Source: a virus. Taken from it: 25,173 bases of DNA. Under the pieces are notes generated by a model that did no database searches, was not told the DNA's origin, and saw only the letters and a program-made list of their open reading frames with translations. The stretch is taken from positions 1 to 25,173 of the IMG/VR virus record IMGVR_UViG_3300032820_000103; one strand, written 5' to 3'. A program made the translations under genes and the position numbers. Shown piece by piece: positions 3,626-10,255 of the stretch (positions are counted from its first letter, which is position 1; every line of letters begins with the position of its first letter).

Positions 3626-3949
3626 ATGTGCGGCGGCGGCCCTTCGGCTCCTCCACCACCTCCACCTCCTCCTCCCCCACCTCCACCACCACCTCCTCAG
3701 GTTCAACAACCTGATCCGGTACAACTACCCACATCAGGAGAACTAGATGTCTCCGAACAGGGTCAAGGTGCAAAGGTAAAAGAAACCGCTAGCCGTAGAG
3801 CTGAGCGGAAACAAAAGAGAAGGAAAGGAACTAGTACCCTAGCTAAAGATGCTCCAGCAGCAGCAACAGCTAGCAACCTGAACATAGGTACAGGTGGCGG
3901 TGCTTCTACAGGTGGTGCAGGATCTGCATTAAATATTACTAAGAAATAA
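3626..3949 (+). CDS. polyproline protein preceding the portal
   Basis: A 107-aa low-complexity protein. It starts MCGGGPSA and runs straight into 16 consecutive prolines (3650-3697). A middle part is Lys/Arg-rich (about residues 50-70, RRAERKQKRRKG) and the tail is Gly/Ala/Ser-rich. Upstream GAGGAA gives a plausible ribosome-binding site. There is no signal peptide, so the early Cys is not a lipobox. The stop overlaps the portal ATG by one base (TAATG), so portal translation is likely coupled to it. The position suggests a head-completion or minor structural protein, but nothing in the sequence proves that. Long proline runs normally need EF-P to be translated efficiently. Confidence 0.7.
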   Translation: MCGGGPSAPPPPPPPPPPPPPPPPQVQQPDPVQLPTSGELDVSEQGQGAKVKETASRRAERKQKRRKGTSTLAKDAPAAATASNLNIGTGGGASTGGAGSALNITKK

Positions 3950-5592: not shown

Positions 5593-6447
5593 ATGGCAGA
5601 AACAATTACATATGATCCATCTAATGATCCGCAGGCTATAGCTGAAGCGGAAGCAAGAGATGGAGAGAACCTCGCAGTTGGCGAGGATATGCAAAAACAA
5701 CAGTCAGAACTTCTGGCTGGAAAATATAAAGATGCAGAAGAACTTGAGAAAGCATACATAGAACTACAACAGAAGCTAGGTGAAGGTGAAAAACCTAAAC
5801 TTGAATCTGATAACTGGGAAGCCGTTCCTGGTAAGTCAGGTTATGTAGAAGATGGTAGTGTAGACTACGATACTGTTGAAGAGGTCTATGGTGAAAACTT
5901 AGCAGCTGTATTTGAGGATGCTAACCTAGATCCATGGGAGATAAGTCAGCATTTCCATAGTAATAATGGTACTATTACTGATGAAATGTATCAGAACTTA
6001 CAGAAAGCTGGATTACCTAAAAATGCAGTGGACTCTTATCTAGCAGGTAGAGCTGCCGAGATGGGATATACTTCTAATGCAGAAGTATTGACCCAGCAAG
6101 ATGTTAATGATATGTATGCATTAGCAGGCGGAAAATCTAACTATGATGCTATGACTGATTGGGCGTCTCAAAACTTAAGTCAAGATGACATCCAAGCATT
6201 CGATGAAGTTACCAACACTGGTAACAAAGCAGCTGTACGCTTTGCTGTTAAAGCATTGATGGGACAGTATGAAGATTCTCAAGGTAGGACACCTACATTA
6301 GTGACCGGTAAGAATGCTAGAGCTGGTGAAACCTATCGTAGTATGGCTGAGGTTGTACGTGATATGGAAAGCCCTAAGTATGAAAAGGATGAAGCTTACC
6401 GCTATGATGTACAGAGAAAACTAGAACGATCAAACCTTAAAGTATAA
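5593..6447 (+). CDS. capsid assembly scaffolding protein, T7 gp9-like
   Basis: A 284-aa acidic, helix-rich protein between portal and capsid genes, the T7 gene 9 position (T7 gp9 is about 307 aa). The N-terminus is highly acidic with repeated Ala/Glu/Gln stretches. The C-terminal part carries a conserved-looking helix, ending ESPKYEKDEAYRYDVQRKLE, which resembles the scaffold C-terminus that contacts the coat protein. The protein would guide coat assembly around the portal and then leave the procapsid. Its stop shares one base with the next small gene. Assignment comes from composition, length, C-terminal similarity and synteny. Confidence 0.88.
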   Translation: MAETITYDPSNDPQAIAEAEARDGENLAVGEDMQKQQSELLAGKYKDAEELEKAYIELQQKLGEGEKPKLESDNWEAVPGKSGYVEDGSVDYDTVEEVYGENLAAVFEDANLDPWEISQHFHSNNGTITDEMYQNLQKAGLPKNAVDSYLAGRAAEMGYTSNAEVLTQQDVNDMYALAGGKSNYDAMTDWASQNLSQDDIQAFDEVTNTGNKAAVRFAVKALMGQYEDSQGRTPTLVTGKNARAGETYRSMAEVVRDMESPKYEKDEAYRYDVQRKLERSNLKV

Positions 6448-6760: not shown

Positions 6761-6855
6761 TGGCACCCCGTTATAGATTCTTAAGCGGGAACAAAAAAAA
6801 GAAAAAGAAAAAAGTTAAAAAGGACAAACCTAAAAAAACTAGCTACAACAACTAA
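6760..6855 (+). CDS. 31-aa poly-lysine micro-protein
   Basis: ATG 6760 overlaps the previous TAA, and TAA 6853-6855 overlaps the psbA ATG. The 31-aa product begins [10 protein letters not shown], then has a run of seven lysines and further KK pairs. Its net charge is extreme. It could bind nucleic acid, or its translation may serve mainly to carry ribosomes onto psbA. The poly-A coding tract (about 6790-6835) is also slippery for ribosomes and polymerase. Exact one-base coupling on both sides supports translation, but no function is known. Confidence 0.55.
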
Positions 6856-7907
6856 TGTCAACAGCCACATTAACTAAACCAAATAATAATTGGCAAAGCT
6901 TTTGTGACTGGGTTACAAGTACTGACAACCGTCTCTATGTGGGATGGTTCGGTACTCTAATGATCCCCTGTCTACTTACAGCTGCCACAGCATTTATCAT
7001 TGCCTTCATAGCTGCACCTCCTGTGGACATTGACGGCATCCGCGAACCCGTCTCTGGATCATTACTCTATGGCAACAACATCATCTCAGGGGCAGTCGTC
7101 CCATCATCTAACGCAATTGGTCTTCACTTCTACCCAATCTGGGAAGCTGCAACCATCGACGAGTGGTTATATAACGGAGGAACATATCAACTCGTTGTGT
7201 TCCACTTTCTCATCGGCATCGCAGCTTACATGGGACGCCAATGGGAACTTAGTTATCGATTAGGGATGAGGCCCTGGATTTGTGTTGCTTACTCAGCGCC
7301 AGTGGCAGCAGCCTTTGCTGTCTTCTTGGTATATCCTTTCGGACAAGGAAGTTTCTCTGACGGTATGCCGTTGGGGATATCGGGAACGTTCAACTTTATG
7401 TTTGTCTTTCAGGCGGAACATAATATCCTCATGCATCCTTTCCATATGTTGGGAGTTGCGGGGGTATTTGGCGGCGCTTTGTTCGCTGCTATGCATGGTT
7501 CCCTGGTTACCAGTTCAATTGTTAAAGAAACAACTGACTTAGAATCTCAGAATTATGGATACAAATTCGGTCAAGAGGAAGAGACGTATAATATCGTCGC
7601 AGCTCATGGCTACTTTGGCAGGCTCATCTTCCAGTATGCCTCGTTTAATAATAGCAGGAGTCTTCATTTCTTCCTTGCTTCTTTCCCCGTGGTATGCATA
7701 TGGCTCACCTCCATGGGAGTATCTACCATGGCTTTCAACCTTAATGGCTTTAATTTCAATCAATCCATCCTCGATGCAAACGGAAGAGTCGTCCCCACTT
7801 GGGCTGATGTGCTCAACCGTGCAGACTTAGGAATGGAAGTAATGCATGAAAGAAACGCACATAATTTCCCATTAGATTTAGCAGCAACACCCGAAACAAT
7901 CGGGTAA
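6855..7907 (+). CDS. psbA: photosystem II reaction-centre protein D1
   Basis: A 350-aa D1 protein, uninterrupted. Numbering is one less than the host standard. Functional residues are present: TyrZ Y160, D169, E188, H189 and the chlorophyll/iron ligands H197, H214 and H271. The Mn-cluster ligands are H331, E332, H336, D341 and the processed C-terminus A343. The DE-loop segment [13 protein letters not shown] is intact. Position 129 (host 130) is Gln, as in D1:1-type proteins. After the CtpA cleavage site ([10 protein letters not shown]) only seven residues remain, fewer than the roughly 16 in typical hosts. Phage D1 replaces light-damaged host D1 to keep energy flowing during infection. The gene lies between scaffold and major capsid, so it is likely transcribed with the late genes. 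Codon use is closer to a host gene than to its neighbours. Confidence 0.98.
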
Positions 7908-7911
7908 TATA

Positions 7912-8037
7912 TTGGCGGCTCGGATCAAACCAGTAGAAGCCAACTCACGCCACGTCCGTTCATTCTTCTTAGAAGAACGCATGAAACCACATCATGGAAC
8001 GGGGGTGTGGTACTGGAGTATTAACAATGACTGTTAA
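7912..8037 (+). CDS. possible 41-aa ORF after psbA (TTG start)
   Basis: A frame open from TTG 7912 to TAA 8035-8037 encodes 41 residues. It contains RIKPVEANSRHVRSFFLEER and then MKPHHGTGVWYWSINND. The amino-acid mix (RH, FF, HH, WYW) looks protein-like rather than random. There is no conventional ATG until 7981, which would leave only 18 residues. The start is therefore uncertain, and this may be the remnant of a longer gene broken at the psbA boundary. I do not recognise the family. It overlaps the next micro-ORF by 11 bases. Confidence 0.35.
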   Translation: MAARIKPVEANSRHVRSFFLEERMKPHHGTGVWYWSINNDC

Positions 8038-8088: not shown

Positions 8089-8445
8089 ATGAAAAAACTT
8101 GCACTTGCTCTAGCGGCATCTATCGCTTCTGCTCCTGCAATGGCTGGCGTTTATGTAAACGTCGAGTCTAACGCATCTTATACAGGCAATGATTATACTT
8201 CCCGTACTACTGATTTACACGTAGGCTATGAGGGAGATGTAGGAGATCTTGGATACTATATTCAAGGTGGACCAGCTCTCGTCAACGGCGACGCTGTAGA
8301 CGGATCAACTGAATTCTCAGGCAAAGGTGGTGTAACCATCGCTGCTTCAGAGAAGTTCGATGTGTATGGTGAAGTATCATTCATTACTGATGAAGATGCT
8401 GACAATGCATACGGTACTAAAATCGGCGCTAAGTATAAGTTCTGA
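8089..8445 (+). CDS. exported outer-membrane beta-barrel-like protein
   Basis: A 118-aa protein with a clear Sec signal peptide: KK at 2-3, a hydrophobic Leu/Ala core, and an AMA cleavage site at 17-19. The mature 99 residues have an alternating polar/hydrophobic pattern of short beta-strands (GVYVNVESNASYTG, DLGYYIQGGPAL, FDVYGEVSFI) with Asp/Gly turns. The last residue is Phe after an alternating strand (GTKIGAKYKF), the usual BAM recognition signal of outer-membrane barrels. It is shorter than OmpX/OmpA barrels, so it may be a minimal or partial barrel, or oligomeric. It would be made in the infected cyanobacterium and sent to the periplasm or outer membrane. A receptor-masking, permeability or lysis role is possible. 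Its stop overlaps the next ATG (TGATG). Confidence 0.8.
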   Translation: MKKLALALAASIASAPAMAGVYVNVESNASYTGNDYTSRTTDLHVGYEGDVGDLGYYIQGGPALVNGDAVDGSTEFSGKGGVTIAASEKFDVYGEVSFITDEDADNAYGTKIGAKYKF

Positions 8446-8579
8446 TGAAGTATCTAGAATCCCCATGGGCCATACTTATATTGGTCCTGGGGTTCTTTAC
8501 CTTTATAGAAGTCATGCATTTAAACTATCATGAAAACTGTAAAGGTGATTGTCCCTGTACACTAACCGAAGACTATTAA
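8445..8579 (+). CDS. 44-aa single-pass membrane protein with Cys cluster
   Basis: ATG 8445 overlaps the stop of the exported protein, and TAA is at 8577-8579. The 44-aa product has one hydrophobic segment at about residues 8-24 (WAILILVLGFFTFIEVM). A short polar tail follows, with three cysteines (NCKGDCPCTLTEDY). The Cys spacing could bind a metal or form disulphides if the tail is periplasmic. A holin or spanin-like part in lysis is possible from size and topology, but there is no specific motif. It is probably made with the exported barrel-like protein, as the genes are coupled. Confidence 0.6.
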   Translation: MKYLESPWAILILVLGFFTFIEVMHLNYHENCKGDCPCTLTEDY

Positions 8580-8954: not shown

Positions 8955-8960
8955 GGTCAG

Positions 8961-9031
8961 GCGGGTATAGTTTAGTGGTAAAACTGCAGCCTTCCAAGCT
9001 GTTGTCACCGGTTCGAATCCGGTTACCCGCT
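8961..9031 (+). tRNA. tRNA-Gly (anticodon UCC)
   Basis: A full cloverleaf can be folded. The acceptor stem is 8961-8967 (GCGGGTA) with 9024-9030 (TACCCGC), and U9031 is the discriminator. The D arm is GTTT/AAAC around AGTGGTA. The anticodon arm is GCAGC/GCTGT with loop CTTCCAA, anticodon TCC at 8993-8995. The T arm is ACCGG/CCGGT with loop TTCGAAT. No 3' CCA is encoded. It would decode GGA (and GGG) glycine codons, common in an AT-rich phage. It lies on the same strand within the late gene cluster and so must be processed from the long phage transcript. Confidence 0.97.
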
Positions 9032-9066
9032 TTAGGCTTTAAGGCCCTTACGAGGATACCCTTACT

Positions 9067-9151: not shown

Positions 9152-10255
9152 ATGGCTAATGCTACCCAAACCGCGTTAGGTAGAATTAATCTATCTACCG
9201 GTACAGGTTATGATGGCGCTACCGATAAGTATGCTCTGTATCTGAAACTATTTTCAGGAGAGCTATTTAAAGGGTTCCAACATAATACAATTGCTCGTGA
9301 TTTAGTCACGAAGCGTACGCTCAAGTCAGGTAAAAGTTTACAGTTCATCTATACAGGACGTATGGGAGCCTCATTCCATACGCCAGGAACCCCCATACTA
9401 GGTTCCGGTGATCCGCCAGTAGCAGAGAAGACCATCAATGTTGATGATCTACTCATCTCTAGCGCATTCGTATATGATCTGGATGAAACTCTTGCCCACT
9501 ATGAGCTCAGAGGAGAGATATCTAAGAAGATTGGATATGCTCTTGCAGAAAAGTATGACCGTCTAGTATTTAGATCGATCATACGTGGTGCTCGTGCAGC
9601 ACACCCCATCTCAGCTTCCGGTAAAGTTGAGCCAGGCGGATCTCAGATCCAGGTTGGTTCAGGTTCTGGTGCAGCTGCTGATGCCCTTGACTCAGGTAAG
9701 ATTGTGTCTGCCTTCTTTGAAGCAGCCGCAGTACTAGACGAGAAAGGAGTATCTCAGGATGGCCGTGTAGCCGTACTCTCACCAAGACAGTACTACTCAC
9801 TAATCGAAAACGTTGCATCTAATGCTCTAATCAACAGAGACGAGCAAGGTGACGGCCTGCAATCAGGCTCCGGCGTAATGTCAATTGCCGGTATCAAGAT
9901 ATACAGATCCATGAACGTTCCGTTCCAGGCTAAGTATGGTACCGCATCTACAATTGATAGAGCTGGTTCGTTCGTTGGTGTAGCTACTGAAGATGCCCGT
10001 GCTTCTGTCTCTGGTATCAACAACGCATATGGTAATGCTACCGACTTTGCTACTTCCTGTGGAGTTATCTTCCAGAAAGAAGCAGCAGGTGTAGTCGAAA
10101 CCATTGGACCACAGGTACAAGTTACGAGTGGTGATGTGTCTGTAATCTACCAGGGTGATGTGATCCTTGGACGTTTAGCAATGGGTGCTGATTATCTAAA
10201 CCCAGCAGCTTGCGTCGAGCTTCATGCTACCTCAACAGCTGGCAGCGCATTCTAA
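9152..10255 (+). CDS. major capsid protein, T7 gp10-like
   Basis: A 367-aa coat protein, against 345 aa for T7 gp10A. Diagnostic stretches match the T7 family: KYALYLKLFSGELFKGFQ near residue 26, SGKSLQFIYTGRMGA near 59, and VYDLDETLAHYELRGEISKK near 111. It is expected to have the HK97 fold and to assemble with the scaffold and portal into the icosahedral head. ATG 9152 follows a leader with a palindrome and the tRNA. A strong terminator comes directly after, which in T7 serves to raise capsid transcript relative to downstream genes. No slippery site or extended -1 frame was apparent to suggest a 10B-type frameshift product. Confidence 0.96.
   Translation: MANATQTALGRINLSTGTGYDGATDKYALYLKLFSGELFKGFQHNTIARDLVTKRTLKSGKSLQFIYTGRMGASFHTPGTPILGSGDPPVAEKTINVDDLLISSAFVYDLDETLAHYELRGEISKKIGYALAEKYDRLVFRSIIRGARAAHPISASGKVEPGGSQIQVGSGSGAAADALDSGKIVSAFFEAAAVLDEKGVSQDGRVAVLSPRQYYSLIENVASNALINRDEQGDGLQSGSGVMSIAGIKIYRSMNVPFQAKYGTASTIDRAGSFVGVATEDARASVSGINNAYGNATDFATSCGVIFQKEAAGVVETIGPQVQVTSGDVSVIYQGDVILGRLAMGADYLNPAACVELHATSTAGSAF

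Follow-up and report, generated by a model that had tools for sequence, protein, structure and literature searches.

A putative outer-membrane protein of cyanophages modeled as a half-barrel, with relatives beside phosphate- and zinc-uptake genes

Why does a phage carry, among its late genes, a short gene for an exported protein of outer-membrane type? The question is raised by a virus record from IMG/VR (IMGVR_UViG_3300032820_000103, positions 1 to 25,173), which was analyzed over its whole length of 25,173 nucleotides, referred to here as the window. A preliminary description of this DNA had offered three roles for the gene, namely, blocking the receptor against co-infecting phages, changing nutrient permeability while photosynthesis is kept going, and weakening the envelope before lysis. 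A change in nutrient permeability has emerged as the best supported of these, with family members lying upstream of pstS and host relatives lying in a zinc-uptake cluster. We propose that two chains of the protein form an accessory channel for nutrients in the outer membrane, a reading that we consider evenly balanced between right and wrong and in which insertion, dimerization, channel activity, and substrate are what we infer.

The open reading frame of 118 amino acids located exactly at positions 8089 to 8445 of the window (Table 1) is genuine and under purifying selection. Over the mature part, dN/dS had a median of 0.116 and a maximum of 0.211 in 43 comparisons with same-length proteins of at least 70% identity, a set that includes some duplicates. 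The preliminary description had reported a signal peptide, a mature chain of 99 amino acids, an alternating strand pattern, and a terminal Phe after KYK, and all four observations held. An AxA-G cleavage site leaves residues 20 to 118 as the mature chain, and AxA[G/S] is found in 65 of the 68 aligned family proteins. The chain ends in KYKF, and its last eight residues, K-I-G-A-K-Y-K-F, match the beta-signal consensus zeta-x-G-x-x-Omega-x-Omega. The full motif is present in 66/68 aligned proteins and the terminal Phe (F118) in all 68, the other invariant positions of the alignment being A19, Y22, G46, Y57, G61, and G81. Such an ending is rare in the window itself, where 1 of the 80 stop-to-stop frames of at least 60 amino acids carries it, namely, the 8089-8445 frame alone.

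Table 1. Features of the window that bear on the gene and its surroundings (window coordinates)
Feature	Position	Strand	Basis
Scaffold protein, left flank of slot	5593..6447	+	named from matching annotated gene of 9515-10a
psbA (photosystem II D1), optional neighbor	6855..7907	+	PHROG 182, E 2.3e-190
41-aa ORF, TTG start, conserved, directly after psbA	7912..8037	+	tblastn match in 57/80 related loci
Phage_OMP (PF24653/PHROG 417) gene, 118 aa	8089..8445	+	profile and tblastn matches
Signal peptide, residues 1-19, AxA-G cleavage	8089..8145	+	sequence; low pLDDT at 1-16; cleavage motif in 65/68 proteins
Predicted strand 1, residues 20-32	8146..8184	+	AlphaFold/DSSP
Predicted strand 2, residues 35-51	8191..8241	+	AlphaFold/DSSP
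Predicted strand 3, residues 54-67	8248..8289	+	AlphaFold/DSSP
Predicted strand 4, residues 73-85	8305..8343	+	AlphaFold/DSSP
Predicted strand 5, residues 90-99	8356..8385	+	AlphaFold/DSSP
Predicted strand 6 (DSSP 107-116) with beta-signal K-I-G-A-K-Y-K-F	8407..8442	+	AlphaFold/DSSP; F118 invariant in 68/68
ORF of 44 aa with a single hydrophobic stretch; its start codon and the OMP stop codon overlap (TGATG)	8445..8579	+	tblastn match in 28/80 related loci
Major capsid protein, right flank of slot	9152..10255	+	345-1153 nt after OMP in the 62/80 loci where seen

Profile searches placed the window protein in Phage_OMP (PF24653; 7.5e-43, 146.1 bits against a cut-off of 27, profile positions 3 to 122 of 122), a family that is the same as PHROG 417 (1.2e-40), PhCOG173 "DUF680," and gp222. 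The window protein is a plain member that shows no difference from the rest and has both family traits, the signal peptide and the C-terminal aromatic residue. The profile OMP_b-brl (PF13505) stayed below its curated cut-off (14 bits versus 28.7) and was matched over positions 58 to 175 of 175 only. The homology search that the preliminary description had called for returned relatives in 469 of 50,697 phage records (tblastn), in addition to single-unit and two-unit relatives from host genomes. By the first word of their names, 458 of the 469 records are Synechococcus, Prochlorococcus, or cyanophage entries, 8 are "Marine," and 3 are "uncultured." The nearest relatives belong to Prochlorococcus podoviruses (P-SCSP-R27W, 66%; P-SSP6, 9515-10a, and NATL2A-133, 65%), and those of 9515-10a and NATL2A-133 are annotated as gp222. 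In genome contigs, a single peptide pattern gave 24 stretches, from which 9 loci with single-unit relatives were obtained. One contig of 188,235 bases, deposited under the name of the flavobacterium Nonlabens xiamenensis, also carries the gene; its length is near that of a T4-like cyanophage genome, and it is possibly a case of contamination.

The family is known and widespread. The earlier statement that no function was described for such a gene was too strong, as papers exist on PF24653, PHROG 417, and PhCOG173/DUF680 and a link to phosphate stress has already been discussed in print. In the available passages of these sources, cluster 173 (DUF680) is over-represented at BATS, as is PstS (PMC3686209), and DUF680 is among the genes in which cyanophages are enriched and which the other phages of the comparison lack, with pstS clusters described in the same work (PMC3037559). 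The relative in phage S-TIM4 is, in the accessible text, not among the particle proteins, and a role in phosphate limitation is cited there as suggested (Enav 2018, PMC6224464). The same source reports 13 mutations in this gene, many of them expected to be inactivating, whose sum in every population passaged on Synechococcus WH8102 is about 100% (Enav 2018, PMC6224464); the phage can therefore do without the gene, and having it can carry a cost, a finding compatible with many roles. The DUF680 relative of S-SZBM1 is listed in a particle proteome, where the part seen gives a row of 2 and 25.4%, taken here as peptides and coverage (PMC9146016). In the available part of a P-depletion table, the largest log2 fold change is that of S-PM2d169, which was considered as a relative and rejected; by eye it reads as a different, helical membrane protein. 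In the titles, abstract openings, and passages covered, we found no tested function of the PF24653/DUF680 family and no account of its members as half-barrels or in connection with a zinc cluster.

An AlphaFold model of the window protein, built from the 68-sequence alignment, has six strands, with a pLDDT of 82.8 for the full sequence and about 91 for the mature chain. Natural one-chain outer-membrane barrels are not known to have fewer than eight strands, and since the models have only six, the protein was not filed as a one-chain barrel. Superposition with VIA-align gave the lowest rmsd values for the designed barrel TMB10_163 (1.9 Å over 87 residues), BAM-bound EspP (2.3 Å over 99), TbuX (2.6 Å over 110), AaaA (2.9 Å over 118), and AIDA-I (3.0 Å over 118). 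The eight-stranded barrels OmpX, OmpA, NspA, OprF, OmpW, and Ail gave 3.8 to 5.0 Å, a range overlapped by the wider barrels Pla (3.8 to 3.9 Å), OmpG (3.1 to 3.9 Å), and FadL (4.0 Å), and the Z-scores of eight-stranded and wider barrels were tied at about 8 to 9. The five barrels of lowest rmsd, together with Pla, OmpG, and FadL, have 10 to 14 strands. For the paralogue OMP2, an alignment that mixes 36 OMP2-type and 30 OMP1-type rows yielded a model that also has six strands (pLDDT about 92) and that lies closest to TMB10_163 (1.5 Å over 88 residues), KdgM (1.9 Å over 87), and BrkA (2.2 Å over 95), with the eight-stranded barrels at 3.6 Å or more. Foldseek found no match to the window model in the PDB at an E value of 0.001 or lower, the top rows being mostly outer-membrane proteins; at the same threshold it found 11 matches in BFVD, seven of them named, all as cyanophage or uncultured-phage entries, and four nameless. 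A sequence profile search of the PDB returned three matches, the best a designed barrel (E 0.044), with KdgM, NanC, PhoE, and OprP not among them.

In our reading, the model is an unclosed sheet that curves as part of a wider barrel would, amounting to half of approximately 12 strands, and the window protein is probably a half-barrel needing a second chain. The preliminary description had assigned a BAM-type outer-membrane barrel. The barrel type is upheld by the sequence features and the model, which make an outer-membrane location very likely, but the single chain probably forms half of a barrel and not the whole. The six-stranded models superpose on part of KdgM/NanC-type 12-stranded porins and of 12-stranded autotransporter barrels; in these, unlike the proposed arrangement, one chain makes the whole barrel. 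Barrels closed by several chains exist in the YadA anchor (a trimeric autotransporter) and in TolC, although there three chains contribute four strands each and have long helical parts. We know of no description of two-chain barrels among natural outer-membrane proteins.

Relatives of the phage unit occur in the hosts. PF24653 matched 48 of 400 genomes from the family of the Prochlorococcus single-cell genome G002, 32 of them above the curated cut-off, and none of 14 control genomes. Among 386 genomes sampled from the phylum, 20 were matched by a profile of the two-unit proteins and 9 by PF24653 (4 over the cut-off), but except for G566, which was below the cut-off, these are genomes already drawn in the G002-centered searches. 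Besides single units, the host forms include open reading frames of about 320 to 410 amino acids with a His-rich stretch and two-unit open reading frames of about 260 amino acids in five genomes (G162, G041, G127, G083, and G033; domain E values of 6e-6 to 4e-3). Within the two-unit proteins, one half matches the other at 4e-19 to 1e-13 by hmmsearch and at 6e-17 over 102 columns by hhalign, and the phage unit matches each half both locally over 79 columns (2.3e-8 and 1.1e-7) and when forced into a global alignment of 99 columns (6.5e-9 and 1.9e-8), all four values being from single comparisons; the sixth strand is aligned in the global mode only. In a Pfam scan, PF24653 was the sole match of a host two-unit protein (1.2e-13, in two stretches, the better of which covers profile positions 20 to 122 of 122). 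The host protein is built of the same unit as the phage protein, with halves of 98 to 103 amino acids as cut and an aromatic C terminus, but it differs in having two units per chain, in being cellular, and in lying beside zinc-uptake genes.

At host locus L220, a FUR regulator gene is followed in turn by genes for an ABC ATPase, an ABC-3 permease, ZnuA, the His-rich OMP, the two-unit OMP, and the cobW GTPase, and the same order was read by sequence at L226. At L221 the His-rich and two-unit OMP genes come after a FUR gene, with cobW 1.7 kb downstream; at L223 a FUR gene adjoins the two-unit OMP gene, with a cobW-like open reading frame on the other side (by sequence); and at L224 ZnuA adjoins the His-rich OMP. 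L225, which has a His-rich OMP, showed no recognizable zinc-uptake gene within 11 kb. The zur-znuCBA-OMP-cobW neighborhood places the fused host relatives in zinc uptake, and we infer that they transport zinc, which would make them a candidate outer-membrane zinc channel of picocyanobacteria. No fused two-unit protein was found on the phage side among 193 family open reading frames in 178 loci, and the host two-unit profile, run on viral contigs, gave 90 pattern stretches and no relatives. In a tree of 100 columns, whose bootstrap had not settled, OMP2 sequences form one group and the host halves group together; the tree gives no direction of transfer between phage and host forms. The His-rich OMP, found beside znuA (L220, L224, and L226) or a FUR gene (L221), is itself a candidate outer-membrane zinc protein of picocyanobacteria; its L220 representative had no Pfam match at 1e-5, and that of L188 matched PF24653 at 5.5e-8. 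A decayed single-unit OMP gene with in-frame stops, perhaps a phage relic, was noted on a 2.4-Mb host contig (G123:C1:132523-132861; L203 and L229).

On the viral side, the paralogue OMP2 lies directly upstream of pstS, with a gap of 7 to 224 nucleotides, in 69 of 73 loci; these 73 are the OMP2 viral loci, out of 80, with at least 400 nucleotides downstream, 7 having less. The exceptions are L264, L265, L268, and L272. Another family member lies within 1.2 kb upstream of OMP2 in 48 of the 75 loci with room for it. When the OMP2 records listed (60 of 361) were compared with the pstS records listed (60 of 89), both containing GenBank/RefSeq duplicates, 41 were common to the two, and in all 41 pstS follows OMP2 on the same strand. 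Of the 19 listed pstS records that were not in the listed OMP2 records, one record each of S-SM2, S-SM1, and S-SKS1 was examined, and in all three pstS directly follows a DUF680/gp222 gene. The orders are OMP1, OMP2, pstS, phoA in S-SM2; OMP1, OMP2, pstS in P-SSM2; OMP, pstS, phoA in S-SM1; and OMP (acidic type), pstS in S-SKS1. P-SSM2 g247 is said to have been found P-induced by Zeng and Chisholm in 2012. One S-RIM12 isolate from the same 19 is a counter-example, with pstS and no adjoining OMP gene. Adjacency to pstS, by which a Pho auxiliary gene would be recognized, is present for OMP2 and absent for the window gene; pstS had no match in the window, nor in five podovirus records that contain genes closely related to the window gene and that may be fragments. 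Such adjacency is present in the podovirus contig L315, where an OMP of the window type stands in the order psbA-OMP-pstS-capsid (positions 433 to 1903). The pstS frame of L315 is in two overlapping pieces, 957 to 1445 and 1415 to 1903. The 200 nucleotides before the window gene contain no Pho box, even when one mismatch is allowed. Among 52 podovirus and 79 myovirus genes, one of each is preceded by an exact box, compared with 0.1 to 0.2% of random 200-nucleotide windows, and Pho-box control as a family-wide feature was rejected.

The predicted lumen of the two paralogues differs in charge. The lumen side was defined as the more polar face of each AlphaFold strand by one parity rule, applied to 86 rows in groups that are phylogenetically non-independent. 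By this rule the net lumen charge is -3 for the window protein and averages -2.6 for podoviruses (n = 25, range -5 to +2), -2.65 for OMP1 (n = 20), -3 and -3.25 for host N and C halves (four each), and +2.4 for OMP2 (n = 33, range +2 to +5). Over the entire mature chain, the mean net charge is negative in every group, OMP2 included (-4.1), and OMP2 is positive on the predicted lumen face only. Predicted lumen positions are less variable than lipid-facing ones in podoviruses and OMP1 together (P = 0.031) and in OMP2 (P = 0.0004); for podoviruses alone, where the means are 0.79 bits in the lumen, 1.0 on the lipid face, and 1.09 in the loops, the lower lumen variability is not significant (P = 0.12). 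For the window protein, an acidic predicted lumen suggests cations such as divalent metals, and for the paralogue beside pstS, a basic one suggests phosphate. Charge type and neighbor do not correspond one to one, as a basic OMP lies beside psbA in P-SSP2 and acidic OMPs lie beside pstS in S-SKS1 and L315.

The window appears to be a piece of a T7-like cyanopodovirus genome, as its genes for portal, scaffold, psbA, OMP, capsid, and tail tube follow the order of the annotated 9515-10a (Autographiviridae). The late-region position given in the preliminary description agrees with this order, with psbA upstream and the major capsid gene downstream. In 80 related viral-contig loci, the OMP gene is downstream of the scaffold gene wherever one is seen (49/49) and upstream of the capsid gene wherever one is seen (62/62), and three loci (L028, L044, and L045) have the OMP gene without another marker. 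Of the 49 loci with a scaffold gene, 20 have psbA between it and the OMP gene and 29 lack it there, and coupling of the OMP gene to psbA was rejected for this reason; the tie to photosynthesis made earlier is accordingly weak. In P-SSP2 (L311), this slot is filled by hli-OMP-psbA, in which a basic-lumen OMP stands directly before psbA instead of an acidic one after it. Together with the psbA counts, this indicates that either type of outer-membrane protein can occupy the slot and that psbA is an optional neighbor.

We hypothesize that the window protein is made late in infection, exported by its signal peptide, and inserted by BAM into the host outer membrane through its C-terminal beta-signal. 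Each chain would supply six strands, and two chains would close a 12-stranded channel that feeds periplasmic binding proteins with nutrients during infection; the host two-unit relative would make the equivalent channel within one chain. Given its kinship to a host pore in a zinc cluster and to viral pores beside a phosphate-uptake gene, the protein probably helps the infected cell take in scarce nutrients, and we hold a nutrient role to be reasonably likely. More tentatively, and with doubt on our part outweighing belief, cyanophage half-barrels in general, as identical chains or as a tandem OMP1-OMP2 pair, may close one 12-stranded pore that the host has as a fusion in a zinc-uptake operon, the phage forms being split into an acidic type for metal and a basic type, beside pstS, for phosphate. 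In function such a channel would resemble PhoE and OprP, outer-membrane anion channels co-regulated with phosphate uptake, which differ in being 16-stranded trimers. A phage gene for an outer-membrane channel is also found in coliphage PA-2 (Lc), although that is a full-size, host-like porin linked to superinfection. New here are the six-strand half-barrel model, the fused host relative in a zinc cluster, the pstS-linked paralogue, and the two lumen types; in the literature passages available, PhCOG173/DUF680 has so far been called phosphate-related with no mechanism given. If the proposal is true, the first, outer-membrane step of nutrient uptake would be under viral control and not the PstS step alone. 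Whether ocean viruses open the picocyanobacterial outer membrane to metals and phosphate becomes a testable question, and a rare natural two-chain barrel would bear on barrel evolution by duplication.

The same channel role might be filled by another architecture, either one chain closing on itself with its six strands or three such chains sharing a barrel of 18 strands. By our estimate the geometry allows a six-stranded barrel, the Z-scores do not separate barrel sizes, and YadA and TolC are precedents for barrels shared between chains, but the lowest rmsd of both models is to barrels of 10 to 14 strands and the five host proteins have two units, not three, and we consider such an architecture unlikely. 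Receptor blocking, in which an outer-membrane protein would mask or remodel the phage receptor and so exclude superinfecting phages, is quite improbable. It gained no positive evidence; the predicted extracellular loops are only 2 to 7 residues long, variability is lowest in the lumen and highest in the loops, and family members lie beside pstS and, in hosts, in a zinc cluster. A phage-encoded exported protein of barrel type does agree with it, as does the S-TIM4 relative, which the mutations in the available part of that report indicate to be dispensable and potentially costly (PMC6224464), a finding that fits many roles.

Accumulation of a barrel late in infection could instead loosen the outer membrane and help lysis, as the third of the original suggestions had it. 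Nothing beyond the late position of the gene in the podovirus, apart from the 44-amino-acid hydrophobic open reading frame overlapping its stop codon, speaks for this; the gene sits between scaffold and capsid genes, its paralogue is tied to pstS, and it shows purifying selection and lumen conservation, all of which make a lysis helper highly improbable. Slightly less probable still is that the protein belongs to the virion and not to the host envelope. Its signal peptide is of the export route, and phage preparations can be contaminated by outer-membrane vesicles, which counts against taking presence in a preparation at face value. The particle proteome of S-SZBM1, in the part seen, does contain a DUF680 protein (PMC9146016), whereas that of S-TIM4, as far as the available text goes, does not (PMC6224464).

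Several smaller features of the window were noted. The 41-amino-acid open reading frame at 7912 to 8037 had no Pfam or PHROG match, and its relatives are present even where psbA is absent. That at 8445 to 8579 has a Cys-rich tail, CKGDCPC, and in part of the 28 loci matched out of 80 its relative lies at the same place. A promoter and terminator scan gave 7 promoter-like sites where 6.0 were expected and 4 terminator-like sites where 1.8 were expected. A tRNA-Gly gene (TCC) lies at 8960 to 9032, between the OMP gene block and the capsid gene, and a 107-amino-acid open reading frame at 3626 to 3949 encodes a long proline run after MCGGGPSA.
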